Below, piece after piece: positions 126-35,153 of a stretch of 35,153 nucleotides of DNA. The translations under genes were made by a program, and so were the position numbers. How positions within the stretch are numbered: the stretch's first letter is position 1; the number at the start of each line of letters is the position of its first letter. Where the stretch lies: positions 1 through 35,153 of IMG/VR virus record IMGVR_UViG_3300022198_004140; one strand, written 5' to 3'. Below the pieces are notes generated by a model. It was given only the letters and a program-made list of their open reading frames with translations. It was not told the origin of the DNA and did not search any database. The stretch is from a virus.

Positions 126-362
126 CTAATATAGCTTCACCCTAACTAAAGATAAGTTGCGATCATACAACCTCTTTTTCTCAGCGTTTTTACTGTAAAA
201 AATAGTTTCAGCATGAAGTAGTGTATGCAACAATTCTCTATTAAATTCAACTAATTGCATATACTCTTCTCTACAAGTTTCAGCATACATAGAGACAATT
301 TTGTAATGATGTTTTTTAGGAACATATTTTCTAAATACCCATTCTTTAATAAATTTAATCAT
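126..362 (-). CDS. Small basic hypothetical protein, 78 aa
   Basis: A 78-residue protein rich in Lys, Arg, Glu and aromatic residues, starting MIKFIKEWVF and ending VRVKLY. I do not recognise a family and see no signal peptide or membrane segment. It starts 4 nt after the stop of the 109-aa gene at 366-695, so it is probably the last or next-to-last cistron of the NAD+ gene operon. Its stop is TAG and the same frame stays open beyond it to the window edge, so the annotated end could be a nonsense mutation or a leaky stop. Confidence 0.6.
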   Translation of the reverse strand: MIKFIKEWVFRKYVPKKHHYKIVSMYAETCREEYMQLVEFNRELLHTLLHAETIFYSKNAEKKRLYDRNLSLVRVKLY

Positions 363-365
363 AAA

Positions 366-695
366 CTACCATAATACCTCATCTTCATTAAGATTATCTA
401 TACTTAAGTCTAAATCACCATGACATCCTAGATGAATGTCTAAACATTCCTCTTTCTCAATCAAACCCCATTTAACTAAGTGACATATAAAAGAGTTTTT
501 TTCGCTTGCATTTCCCCATATATCTGAGCCATATTCTCTATAATTTTTATTTCTTAAAATATAGTCCTCTTTCAGTTTATCTATGTCAAAATCTTTTTTA
601 CATCTATAAAGACCAACATTATGTAAATCATCATATGAGTCAGCATTAAATAAAATTAACTTACCTTTTTCGATATAATTTGTTTTAGATTTCAT
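366..695 (-). CDS. Hypothetical protein, 109 aa, in NAD+ gene operon
   Basis: I chose the ATG at 695 (MKSKTNYIEKG). A longer form would need a TTG codon two codons upstream. The start lies inside the last codons of the NAMPT-like gene (11-nt overlap), so translation is probably coupled to it. The protein is acidic towards the C terminus (DIHLGCHGDLDLSIDNLNED) and has no membrane segment. I do not recognise the family. Its position directly behind the NAD+ pair makes a role in the same process possible, but that is only context. Confidence 0.65.
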   Translation of the reverse strand: MKSKTNYIEKGKLILFNADSYDDLHNVGLYRCKKDFDIDKLKEDYILRNKNYREYGSDIWGNASEKNSFICHLVKWGLIEKEECLDIHLGCHGDLDLSIDNLNEDEVLW

Positions 696-2154
696 CTGCA
701 ATATCTCTTATTTGACGTAATGAAGTTTCTTGTACTAATTTACCGTTTTCATACACAACTTCCAACAGCCCTTCACTTTCCTCTTTAACAGTGCAGTTAT
801 CGTTAACTTTAATATTGTCACCACTTCTATAAACTTTTAATAATCCTTTTAGAGATTTTTTGCCATTATCGGTCTTAGGGTCTTTGTAGATAGCTTCCCA
901 TTTATTGTTCTTGTAAACAGCAGTTGCTTTAACAGCGGTGCCATGGGTATCTCTAGTTACATATTGATACGTATAAGAACCTATGCCTAACACTATGTTT
1001 GAACTAGCAAATCCTTTTCTTTCTAACTTATCCAATATCTGCTCTTGTCTTTCTAATGTTATACTATCACCGTATATGGCACCGATTTTGTCATTTAAAA
1101 CCTTATAGCCTTTTGAGTTTATGGTTCCGCCAAAAATATCCCACAAGCACTCAATTAAACCTTTATCCTCTGGCATTTCTCTTAAAGGTGATTTACCACA
1201 AATAATATCTACTGGGTCTCCTGAGTCAGGACGTATAACAACTTTACCATCGCGAGCCATTATATCTTTTTTTAACTGAGGTAAAAACTCATTAACTACT
1301 TTCCAAAAATCCCAAGTATCACTAACAATACTTAAAACCCCCACTGGAGATACTTCGTTCATTAGATATTTAAAAAACTCAATTTCCCCTTCATTCTGCC
1401 AAGAACATGTTACCGAGTGTTCTGTCGCATTAACTGAACACCCTATAAGTTCTTTTGATGAGTCTGCGTTGTAATAATCTTCAGCAAATCTTACTGCGGG
1501 TATTGTGTCAGTACCGACAAATCCTGAACATAAATGAGCGAACCCAGACATAGCAGCTGCTTCTAACCCAAACATTCCCCTAAAACTGAAATCGTGCCCT
1601 TGAAACTTAACGTGGTCATCGTTATCACATGTTTTTTGTGAGTATTCCATAAACTTATCATAATACGCTTTTGCCGTTGTAGCTGAGGTTGAAATCGCCC
1701 ATATATAAGAAGACAATACTGTTTCTACCATGTTTGTAAGCCATTGGAAACCTTCGACAGTATTAACTATCGTAAAGCAAGGTACTTGATATGGAACTAA
1801 GGTACCTTCTGGTAATGCTTTTATTTTTAACGGCAGATAACCTAAATCGTACAAGTTACTTAAATAATCAACATTTACGTCATGCCCTAGCATATTCGAT
1901 AGTAATTCTTTATGGTTTTTCATGGCTACATCTTTTGATACTTTGAAAAAAGTTTCATTCCATGTTTTAATTAAATATTCTTTGATGAAATATTGTAATC
2001 CAAGAAATACAACACCTTTAGAATCCTTTATGTTAGAAAGTTTACTGCTTCTATTTGTGTAATTTGAATAGACTTTTTTAACATCTGGGTGATATGCATG
2101 CACATGAAATTCTTTGTATACATCTTTTTGTAACGTGGCTTGTATCATTTTCAT
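685..2154 (-). CDS. nadV: Nicotinamide phosphoribosyltransferase-like enzyme (NAMPT/NadV, or Namat of NARP1)
   Basis: A 489-residue enzyme of the NAMPT/nicotinate phosphoribosyltransferase family, near the usual 460-500 aa. Visible family landmarks are FRG at 191-193, GTDT at 214-217 (the Asp that contacts nicotinamide), TEHSV at 244-248 with the catalytic His at about 246, RPDSGDP at 308-314, and the C-terminal phosphate-binding stretch TRDTHGTAVKA plus YKDPKTDNGKKS (about 400-434). The classical reaction is nicotinamide + PRPP to NMN + PPi. In the phage NARP1 pathway a NAMPT-like protein (Namat) instead joins nicotinamide to ADPR-pyrophosphate, giving NAD+ directly. Sequence alone does not decide between them, but the 4-nt ATGA overlap with a PRPP-synthetase-like gene, and no visible NMN adenylyltransferase here, favour NARP1. 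A second ATG two codons in is an alternative start. Confidence 0.93.
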   Translation of the reverse strand: MKMIQATLQKDVYKEFHVHAYHPDVKKVYSNYTNRSSKLSNIKDSKGVVFLGLQYFIKEYLIKTWNETFFKVSKDVAMKNHKELLSNMLGHDVNVDYLSNLYDLGYLPLKIKALPEGTLVPYQVPCFTIVNTVEGFQWLTNMVETVLSSYIWAISTSATTAKAYYDKFMEYSQKTCDNDDHVKFQGHDFSFRGMFGLEAAAMSGFAHLCSGFVGTDTIPAVRFAEDYYNADSSKELIGCSVNATEHSVTCSWQNEGEIEFFKYLMNEVSPVGVLSIVSDTWDFWKVVNEFLPQLKKDIMARDGKVVIRPDSGDPVDIICGKSPLREMPEDKGLIECLWDIFGGTINSKGYKVLNDKIGAIYGDSITLERQEQILDKLERKGFASSNIVLGIGSYTYQYVTRDTHGTAVKATAVYKNNKWEAIYKDPKTDNGKKSLKGLLKVYRSGDNIKVNDNCTVKEESEGLLEVVYENGKLVQETSLRQIRDIADEI

Positions 2155-3017
2155 AATTTTATTACCTCTATATATTTATTTGATTCACCTGAATAATAAC
2201 TATCTGTCGTATAAATTTTATCAATATATGGTTTTAGTGCGTCTAAACCTTTCGTAAATATTCCGTGAGTCACAACTAACTCCACCGATTTAGCGTCATA
2301 TAATTCTTTAGTCTTAGCCAACTTAGCTAGTTCTATGAACGTTCTTCCACCATCACAAATATCATCTATTATAACTACATTCTTATTTGTAACATTACCG
2401 TGTATAGTAACTCTTGAAATTTCTCCTGTTTTTAAATCACGATGTTTGAACCCAGTGGCTACTGAGTTTTTTGCATTAAACTTTAAAGCTAGTTCATTTA
2501 CTTCTTTGTACGCACCGACATCTGGTGACAGGACTATAGTGTCCGTTGAACCTACTTTTTCTGACAGTAAGTCAAAAAATATTCTGTTTTTACCTATAGT
2601 TTTAGCGTTATTTATCAATAATGGAGCTACATTGCTATGAGGGTCATATATGTTAACTTCGTCAAAATTCATTGAGTTGACCATACCGGCAACGACATTT
2701 AAACTAAAACATTCTCCAGCCGAGCAAACTCTGTCTTGACGCATATACGGTAAGTATATTAAGTCTAAAATATATTCAAACTTACATGGTGAGGCAGAAC
2801 CTAATGCATCTTTAATCAACATTAGCTCAAATAAATCTTTCTCGTCTTTTAACCTTGCTCTGAAATGTATCATTTTGAGTTCTGTTATTATTTTTTGATC
2901 TTTTATTTCTATTTTTATTTCACCAGATGGGAATTTTACTTTATTGTATTCTATGTTATAAGTTTTTATTAAATCTTTATTTATATATGGTATTGCCGTC
3001 AATTCAATTGTTTTCAT
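2151..3017 (-). CDS. prs: Ribose-phosphate pyrophosphokinase-like enzyme (Prs, or Adps of NARP1)
   Basis: 288 residues, a little shorter than cellular PRPP synthetase (about 315). Motifs in order: FPSGEIKI at 29-36 (FSDGE-type region), the ATP loop PYMRQDR at 90-96, DPHS at 125-128 (DLH-type metal/ATP site), SPDVGA at 164-169, a Lys in TGFKHRD (about 191), and the phosphoribosyl loop VVIIDDICDGGRTF at 214-227. That loop reads CDGGRT rather than the usual DT-GGT/AGT, a change in the ribose-phosphate pocket. The family transfers pyrophosphate from ATP to ribose 5-phosphate. The phage NARP1 member (Adps) acts on ADP-ribose instead. It is the promoter-proximal partner of the NAMPT-like gene, overlapping it by 4 nt (TTATGA), with ribosome binding site AAGGGTGA upstream. 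Confidence 0.92.
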   Translation of the reverse strand: MKTIELTAIPYINKDLIKTYNIEYNKVKFPSGEIKIEIKDQKIITELKMIHFRARLKDEKDLFELMLIKDALGSASPCKFEYILDLIYLPYMRQDRVCSAGECFSLNVVAGMVNSMNFDEVNIYDPHSNVAPLLINNAKTIGKNRIFFDLLSEKVGSTDTIVLSPDVGAYKEVNELALKFNAKNSVATGFKHRDLKTGEISRVTIHGNVTNKNVVIIDDICDGGRTFIELAKLAKTKELYDAKSVELVVTHGIFTKGLDALKPYIDKIYTTDSYYSGESNKYIEVIKL

Positions 3018-3044: not shown

Positions 3045-3344
3045 TTAACAATTCTTAGCATAGCTCTCCCATCTCCACATACCCACTTCACCACAACCCC
3101 CCATCTCACACTCTCTGACCACACTCATTATTTCCTCTTCATCATACTTATCGCATATATGCTCCATTAACACCTCCCCCACACTCTCTCTCACTCTCTT
3201 GTCAACATTATCGCACAATATGACTTCTTTTATAGCCTCATTCATTTTTTTGTAGTTTAGGTTATAATTTCTGTCATAGAATTGAACTGTTGTTTTTTCG
3301 ATCACTTCTTGTATCAACCATTTATCTTGATCTTTCCACACCAT
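3045..3344 (-). CDS. Hypothetical protein, 99 aa, first gene of the NAD+ operon
   Basis: A longer frame could start at 3374, but that ATG forms the end of a consensus -10 box (TATAATG) and would lie upstream of the RNA start. The ATG at 3344 (MVWKDQDKWLIQ) follows AAAGGAAAAT at good spacing, so I use it. No family is recognised. The C-terminal third is odd: its codons are rich in GAG, GTG, GGG and TGG (ending MGGCGEVGMWRWES) and the coding strand is almost free of C there, unlike the neighbouring genes. It has several Cys residues but no clear zinc-finger spacing. It leads the operon that continues into the kinase and NAMPT-like genes after 27 nt. Confidence 0.6.
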   Translation of the reverse strand: MVWKDQDKWLIQEVIEKTTVQFYDRNYNLNYKKMNEAIKEVILCDNVDKRVRESVGEVLMEHICDKYDEEEIMSVVRECEMGGCGEVGMWRWESYAKNC

Positions 3345-3372: not shown

Positions 3373-3400
3373 ATTATACCCTATCAACAACACTTGTCAA
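3373..3400 (-). promoter_or_regulatory. Consensus sigma70 promoter for the NAD+ operon
   Basis: On the minus strand TTGACA (3400-3395), a 16-nt spacer and TATAAT (3378-3373). Both hexamers match the consensus perfectly. RNA would start near 3366, about 20 nt before the AAAGGA ribosome binding site and ATG at 3344. This points to strong early transcription of the 99-aa gene and the NAD+ pair by host RNA polymerase. Confidence 0.8.
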
Positions 3401-7243: not shown

Positions 7244-7726
7244 GTGCACATACAAGCTATAATAAATGATCAAGAAACAAAAGAATGGATTAAAGAGTAC
7301 AAAAAGAGAGAGGGAGTGAGCAACTATAAAATGATCATCAGTGCAATTGATGCATTGAAAAAAATAAATAACGATGGGGGTGCTGTATACTTAATAGATG
7401 GCGTAGTAAAAGAAAAAACAAATAAACGTGCTCTAGATGTTACTGATGAAATAAGAAAAAAATATAATATAAAAGAAATGTTCGAAAGAAAAGGATTGAT
7501 AGCTGATAAACACCACGACCTCATGGCTAAAGGAAATGTCGCAAAATGGCTGCAAAAACATACTAATGACGAAATAATCGAAATATTCGATAGCATAAGA
7601 AATAAAAATGTCGATGCAATCAAAGAAGGTATGAAAGTAGCAGAAGTGGGTGAAATAATAGTAAGGTTGGCTATAAATATGGGGTGGGAAGTCGTTGGGG
7701 GAAGGTTAAGACTTGGTGAAGGTTAG
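7244..7726 (+). CDS. Unknown protein B of a duplicated pair, 160 aa
   Basis: The GTG start at 7244 lies 4 nt after the stop of protein A, with GGAG 9 nt upstream, so the two are one transcription unit. Residues about 48-122 align by eye with protein A. The N-terminal 45 residues (MHIQAIINDQETKEW...) and the C terminus (EVGEIIVRLAINMGWEVVGG) differ. The end overlaps the stop of the convergent baseplate hub gene by 21 nt. Residues 125-160, the stop codon and the next 5 nt are repeated exactly, in inverse orientation, at the right end of the window. The function is unknown; regulation or replication is the best guess from context. Confidence 0.65.
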   Translation: MHIQAIINDQETKEWIKEYKKREGVSNYKMIISAIDALKKINNDGGAVYLIDGVVKEKTNKRALDVTDEIRKKYNIKEMFERKGLIADKHHDLMAKGNVAKWLQKHTNDEIIEIFDSIRNKNVDAIKEGMKVAEVGEIIVRLAINMGWEVVGGRLRLGEG

Positions 7727-7731
7727 GATTG
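7617..7731 (+). repeat. Left copy of a perfect 115-bp inverted repeat
   Basis: Every base is the reverse complement of 35039-35153, read through by eye. It covers the last 36 codons of the gene at 7244, its TAG and 5 further bases. The match ends at 7732 (G, where T would be needed to match). On the left side the match is still perfect where the window ends, so the true repeat may be longer than 115 bp. Confidence 0.97.
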
Positions 7732-35012: not shown

Positions 35013-35041
35013 ATGTTAGTTTTGTTTTTTGTTTTTGTCAA
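35013..35041 (-). promoter_or_regulatory. Promoter of the virion module
   Basis: TTGACA (35041-35036), a 17-nt spacer and TAACAT (35018-35013). RNA would start near 35006, about 28 nt before the small terminase ATG. The first three bases of the -35 box lie inside the 115-bp inverted repeat, the rest just outside it. Confidence 0.55.
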
Positions 35042-35153
35042 TCCTAACCTTCACCAAGTCTTAACCTTCCCCCAACGACTTCCCACCCCATATTTATAGC
35101 CAACCTTACTATTATTTCACCCACTTCTGCTACTTTCATACCTTCTTTGATTG
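35039..35153 (-). repeat. Right copy of the 115-bp inverted repeat
   Basis: Exact reverse complement of 7617-7731. The window ends inside the match, so its full length and what lies beyond are not visible. See the left copy. Confidence 0.97.
35044..35153 (-). CDS. Partial second copy of the gene-B 3' end (36 codons)
   Basis: Within the right repeat copy the minus-strand frame encodes the last 36 residues of protein B (AIKEGMKVAEVGEIIVRLAI and on), ending in TAG at 35046-35044. The 5' part is cut off by the window edge. It is either a real inverted duplicate of the gene, or the end of an assembly path that runs back into the copy at 7244. Confidence 0.6.
   Translation of the reverse strand, partial: IKEGMKVAEVGEIIVRLAINMGWEVVGGRLRLGEG

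Follow-up and report, generated by a model that had tools for sequence, protein, structure and literature searches.

It has been shown that the NrsAB system of Vibrio phage ICP1 raises NAD+ during infection, that the phage needs it to overcome Nezha, an NAD+-depleting SIR2-HerA system, and that it is a fitness burden in the absence of Nezha (PMC11559045). Similarly, the NARP1 systems of Bacillus phage SPbetaL1 and of Paenibacillus rescue cells from Kongming and SPARSA (PMC12774641). A structural study of the SPbetaL1 Namat yielded a signature for its clamp helix, GSX(Phi)X(Phi)X(Phi)TRD, in which two aromatic residues, at positions 3 and 7, grip the adenine of ADPR-PP; these aromatics are absent from NAMPT (PMC12774641). 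An origin of NARP1 in bacteria, followed by co-option by phages, has also been proposed (PMC12774641).

Here we describe a gene pair (positions 685-3017) on a virus fragment of 35,153 bases, which forms the whole IMG/VR record and is referred to below as the window. Most probably, this pair is a phage NARP1 module that would refill NAD+ after cleavage by a defence system; it adds a member from an uncultured phage lineage to a system already known. The earlier note on this DNA had reported overlapping PRPP-synthetase-like and NAMPT-like genes and considered them NARP1-like. Both open reading frames exist exactly as it gave them, and its reading of the enzymes is supported by the Namat signature, the catalytic residues, both protein trees and the loop of the kinase. 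The pair is located on the (-) strand and consists of a gene for an Adps-type kinase (a predicted ADP-ribose pyrophosphate synthetase of 288 aa; 2151..3017), assigned by its family matches, tree position and loop, and a gene for a predicted Namat-type nicotinamide ADP-ribose transferase (489 aa; 685..2154), assigned by its family matches, signature and tree position. The Adps stop codon and the Namat start codon overlap by 4 nt in the sequence ATGA (2151..2154, (-) strand), and it is likely that translation of the two genes is coupled through this overlap. SPbetaL1 has the same gene order and the same 4-nt overlap, and the gene order is also that of ICP1 NrsAB, the closest tested relative, which belongs to a different phage lineage; the ICP1 isolate that we compared carries a broken nrsB.

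Several lines of evidence place the transferase with Namat. Firstly, it contains the clamp helix GSYTYQYVTRD (residues 392-402; 949..981, (-) strand), which fits the published signature and has aromatics at positions 3 and 7, as in SPbetaL1, and it lacks the non-aromatic NAMPT-type helix, GGGLLQ..RD, that is a trait of NARP2. Secondly, in an alignment the NAMPT-like core retains its catalytic residues and those that contact nicotinamide, including D11, Y13, F189, R192, D216, R308, D310 and others, and the catalytic residues are shared with SPbetaL1. Thirdly, its top matches among solved structures, 9w5x and 9w5w, have the sequence of the SPbetaL1 Namat, to which it is 48.6% identical and whose NAD+-contacting residues it conserves except for three replacements (Arg40 by Lys38, Ala362 by Ser364 and Phe392 by Tyr394). 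The first of these concerns the clamp-loop position that stacks on the adenine, where the window has Lys38 followed by Leu39; we counted this against NARP1, because the pi-stacking described for Lys-type loops is not possible for a leucine. Finally, in a tree computed without the clamp columns the split between Namat-type and NAMPT proteins was fully supported, a result that was repeated in a second tree. The window transferase is placed in the ICP1 NrsB branch of the Namat clade, in a 24-row clade with 100* support that also includes Aeromonas phage PhAER-3 and marine gammaproteobacterial proteins; the ICP1 Namat, in the same fully supported clade, is about 56% identical to it.

Automatic models label the pair as ribose-phosphate diphosphokinase and nicotinate phosphoribosyltransferase. 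The transferase matches Pfam NAPRTase (1.6e-44) and PHROG 448, 'nicotinamide phosphoribosyl transferase' (4e-196), and the kinase matches Pfam Pribosyltran and Pribosyltran_N as well as PHROG 619, 'ribose-phosphate pyrophosphokinase' (2e-78). In an alternative reading, the pair would serve ordinary or NARP2-like salvage, in which the kinase converts ribose 5-phosphate into PRPP, the transferase produces NMN, and an NMN adenylyltransferase of the phage or its host completes NAD+. In line with such a role, and counted by us against NARP1, the kinase scores 121 bits on the NCBI PRPP-synthetase subfamily model TIGR01251, above its cut-off of 113 bits. Moreover, the Namat family can act as NAMPT, since the SPbetaL1 Namat keeps PRPP chemistry, also making NMN from PRPP in vitro (PMC12774641), and NadV of Shewanella oneidensis makes NMN in E. 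coli (PMC7384224). We nevertheless consider salvage improbable, because the clamp aromatics are present and the threonine of the PRPP loop is absent in the window pair, both trees place the pair with Adps and Namat, and the sequence available contains no NMN adenylyltransferase gene. The comparison shows how NARP1 pairs can be distinguished from ordinary salvage despite their automatic salvage-type labels.

The loop of the kinase deserves attention in this respect. The earlier note had pointed out that it reads CDGGRT instead of the usual DT-G/A-GT, and the loop is indeed present, as DDICDGGRTF (residues 218-227; 2337..2366, (-) strand), where PRPP synthetases have the loop DTxGT. Its sequence, DGGRT, departs from the housekeeping form with the conserved threonine, [DS]T-x-[GS]-T. 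This threonine was present in all 12 PRPP synthetases compared and in 0 of 151 Adps-type proteins, 129 of which have a glycine at this site, as does the window kinase (Gly223); the others have Tyr, Phe, Arg, Lys, Ala or Leu. We infer that the absence of the threonine reflects the absence of a terminal phosphate on the substrate; the comparison thereby offers an easily tested mark by which to recognise Adps. CDGG itself is not required, because the assayed SPbetaL1 Adps has the loop SSFGGT. The loop of ICP1 NrsA reads DGAAS. The kinase tree was computed without the loop columns from 42 Adps-type proteins encoded at Namat loci, the window included, and from the 12 PRPP synthetases, which comprise 5 PDB sequences and 7 housekeeping Prs from bacterial genomes (4 of the 7 genomes also carry a Namat-linked Adps). 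The two groups were separated with 100* support, and the window kinase is on the Adps side. In the phylogenetic check that the earlier note proposed, both proteins thus group with the characterised Adps and Namat, apart from PRPP synthetases and NAMPT.

Two other views of the kinase were considered and rejected. CDGGRT is not a peculiarity of the window, as CDGGxT is the majority state among Adps. Nor is the kinase swapped or unusual: compared with the same relatives, the window Namat is about 60% identical and the Adps mostly <40%, but Adps is the faster-diverging protein across the whole family, with a mean identity of 34% where that of Namat is 55-65%, and the window pair is no outlier.

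Salvage of the NARP2 type is characterised by an NMN adenylyltransferase encoded alongside NAMPT. Neither the window nor two overlapping contigs that extend it by at least 7.3 kb contain such a gene (PF01467 or NadM), a result that covers a fragment of an incomplete genome and agrees, for this fragment, with the earlier note, which had seen none. The search with NadM proteins was added because PF01467 alone missed the annotated NadM of Aeromonas phage Riv-10. The NAMPT-type phages compared (n=3), of which the NARP2-like Riv-10 is an example, share the NAMPT fold and nicotinamide chemistry with the window, but they have the motif GGGLLQ..RD and NadM or another NMNAT-like gene (NadM-type in Riv-10), and no Adps. 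Among 169 loci from viruses and bacteria, 149 combined an aromatic at clamp position 3 with an Adps gene, and 5 had the aromatic without Adps, some of them on short contigs. Neither was present at 13 loci, namely those of the 3 NAMPT-type phages and 10 NadV loci, mostly from Pasteurellaceae, whose motifs are GAQTYQRNTRD (9 of 10) and GSLTYQHNTRD (1 of 10). At the 2 remaining loci Adps was present and the motif unreadable; wherever the motif could be read, none of the 169 loci had Adps without the clamp aromatic. This association is suggestive rather than strong, because on the tree it reflects only two changes.

By analogy with the assayed NARP1 systems of SPbetaL1 and Paenibacillus foliorum and with ICP1 NrsAB, the pair would make NAD+ in two steps. 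Adps would transfer pyrophosphate from ATP to ADP-ribose, generating ADPR-PP, and Namat would couple ADPR-PP to nicotinamide to yield NAD+, so that no NMN adenylyltransferase would be needed. The same relatives suggest a role in counter-defence: during infection, the pair would refill the NAD+ pool after SIR2, TIR or a similar defence has cleaved NAD+ into ADP-ribose and nicotinamide. It is also conceivable, if unlikely, that the same chemistry serves metabolism, clearing ADP-ribose and sustaining a high NAD+ level while the phage replicates, and is not directed at any particular defence. Most bacterial relatives have an NrtR-type regulator in their vicinity, and some have NADAR, KptA or PnuC genes there, a setting of NAD+ and ADP-ribose recycling that would fit such a use, but the need for ICP1 NrsAB against Nezha and its cost where Nezha is absent argue against a general metabolic benefit (PMC11559045).

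Decayed or inactive alleles of such pairs exist. ICP1_2001_A has a nonsense mutation (PMC11559045), and in ICP1 2017_Dha_Y the equivalent of Arg399 is a Cys. A decayed or inactive pair is nonetheless very improbable for the window, where both frames are intact, identical protein sequences occur in 3 contigs from different records, and every mapped catalytic residue is present. In ICP1 2017_Dha_Y (L082:6148-7467), the only annotated form of NrsB is shortened, and its motif is GSYTYQYVTCD; Arg399 is a residue that contacts the NMN phosphate.

The bacterial relatives of a pair that is most probably NARP1 were surveyed by scanning 84,980 species genomes of bacteria and archaea, from which 80 matches were listed. 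Among the matches listed, 70 are Namat-type loci (L093-L162), from gammaproteobacteria, Bacteroidota, alphaproteobacteria, Verrucomicrobia and others, and 67 of these 70 have Adps nearby. An NrtR-like gene is present in the neighbourhood of 64 of the 70, at a distance of <=500 bp from the pair in 57, and in all 3 examples checked the encoded protein combines a Nudix domain with the NrtR winged helix. The marine gammaproteobacterial pairs, annotated prs/nadV, resemble the window pair in that their Namat is about 60% identical, belongs to the same clade and has the clamp, and their kinase has the CDGGRT loop; they differ in being chromosomal and adjoining an NrtR-type regulator, whereas the window phage has no NrtR. 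In several bacteria, the repressor NrtR releases DNA upon binding ADP-ribose (PMC6800001).

These observations lead us to a tentative proposal, to which we give somewhat less than an even chance: that NARP1 began as an NrtR-controlled bacterial circuit for ADP-ribose repair, that phages took the enzymes without the regulator, that the nadV-prs 'salvage' pairs are NARP1, and that NadV of Pasteurellaceae is a Namat that reverted to making NMN. In such a circuit the breakdown of NAD+ would induce its own repair, as ADP-ribose is both the known effector of NrtR and the substrate of Adps. Under this proposal, bacterial nadV-prs pairs annotated as PRPP and NMN enzymes would really be NARP1. Beyond the published proposal on the origin of the system, our analysis adds the NrtR link only, which bears on the purpose of NARP1 in bacteria; within the library searched, we found no literature tying NrtR to Adps or Namat, and the study that made the proposal does not mention NrtR (PMC12774641). 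As for NadV, the Pasteurellaceae-dominated loci (L163-L172) are placed within the Namat clade, next to the SPbetaL1 group, and have neither the clamp aromatics nor a nearby Adps, and a return from Namat to NAMPT is possible. One viral locus, L068:6093-6836 ((-) strand), is the sole one with an NrtR-like gene adjoining an Adps-Namat pair, at a distance of 166 bp on a 138-kb contig; either this is a phage that retained the regulator, or bacterial DNA has been classified as viral.

The remainder of the window encodes tailed-phage functions, including terminase, portal, baseplate and tail-fibre genes. The two contigs that overlap its start (99.96% and 100% identical) add genes for RtcB, an RNA ligase 2-like protein, a 5'-3' exonuclease-like protein, a VRR nuclease and a helicase. 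An exact 115-bp inverted repeat is located at 7617-7731 and 35039-35153; the record terminates inside the second copy, and contig L002 begins exactly at the first. The record joins the NARP1 region to the structural genes through the copy at 7617-7731, and the linkage of the two depends on the repeat. Many structural-region genes between 7706 and 34978 have no PHROG or Pfam match, a scan of viral contigs found no relatives of the portal, and all terminase matches among isolates are <30% identical. Judged from the sequence, in particular from the unmatched structural genes and the portal, this is a poorly sampled phage lineage.

The operon is preceded by a perfect sigma-70-type promoter, TTGACA-N16-TATAAT (3373..3400, read 3400-3373 on the (-) strand). 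Such a site is expected 0.15 times per shuffled window, and at least one copy occurred in 12 of 100 shuffles, compared with the 1 perfect site observed. The consensus promoter that the earlier note placed at the head of the pair is thus real, but it directly precedes a small gene and not the pair itself. This gene (99 aa; 3045..3344, (-) strand) lies between promoter and pair, and its start is likelier at 3344, as the earlier note had it, because the -10 box overlaps the ATG at 3374. On the other side of the pair, also on the (-) strand, one small gene overlaps the end of Namat (366..695) and is followed by another of 78 aa (126..362), which has a weak match to a PHROG family of unknown function. 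None of the three has a convincing family match, and viral-contig scans with 366-701 and 3045-3344 returned the same phage only. The suggestion in the earlier note that these genes could be accessory parts found no support, as no homologues were detected beside other NARP1 pairs; they may share the transcript of the pair, and no tie to the pathway was found. Elsewhere, an extra small gene, which in crAss-like phage cr111_1 has no Pfam match, lies between Adps and Namat themselves, in Aeromonas phage PhAER-3 and in cr111_1 (L086:4595-4966, L087:6487-6918).
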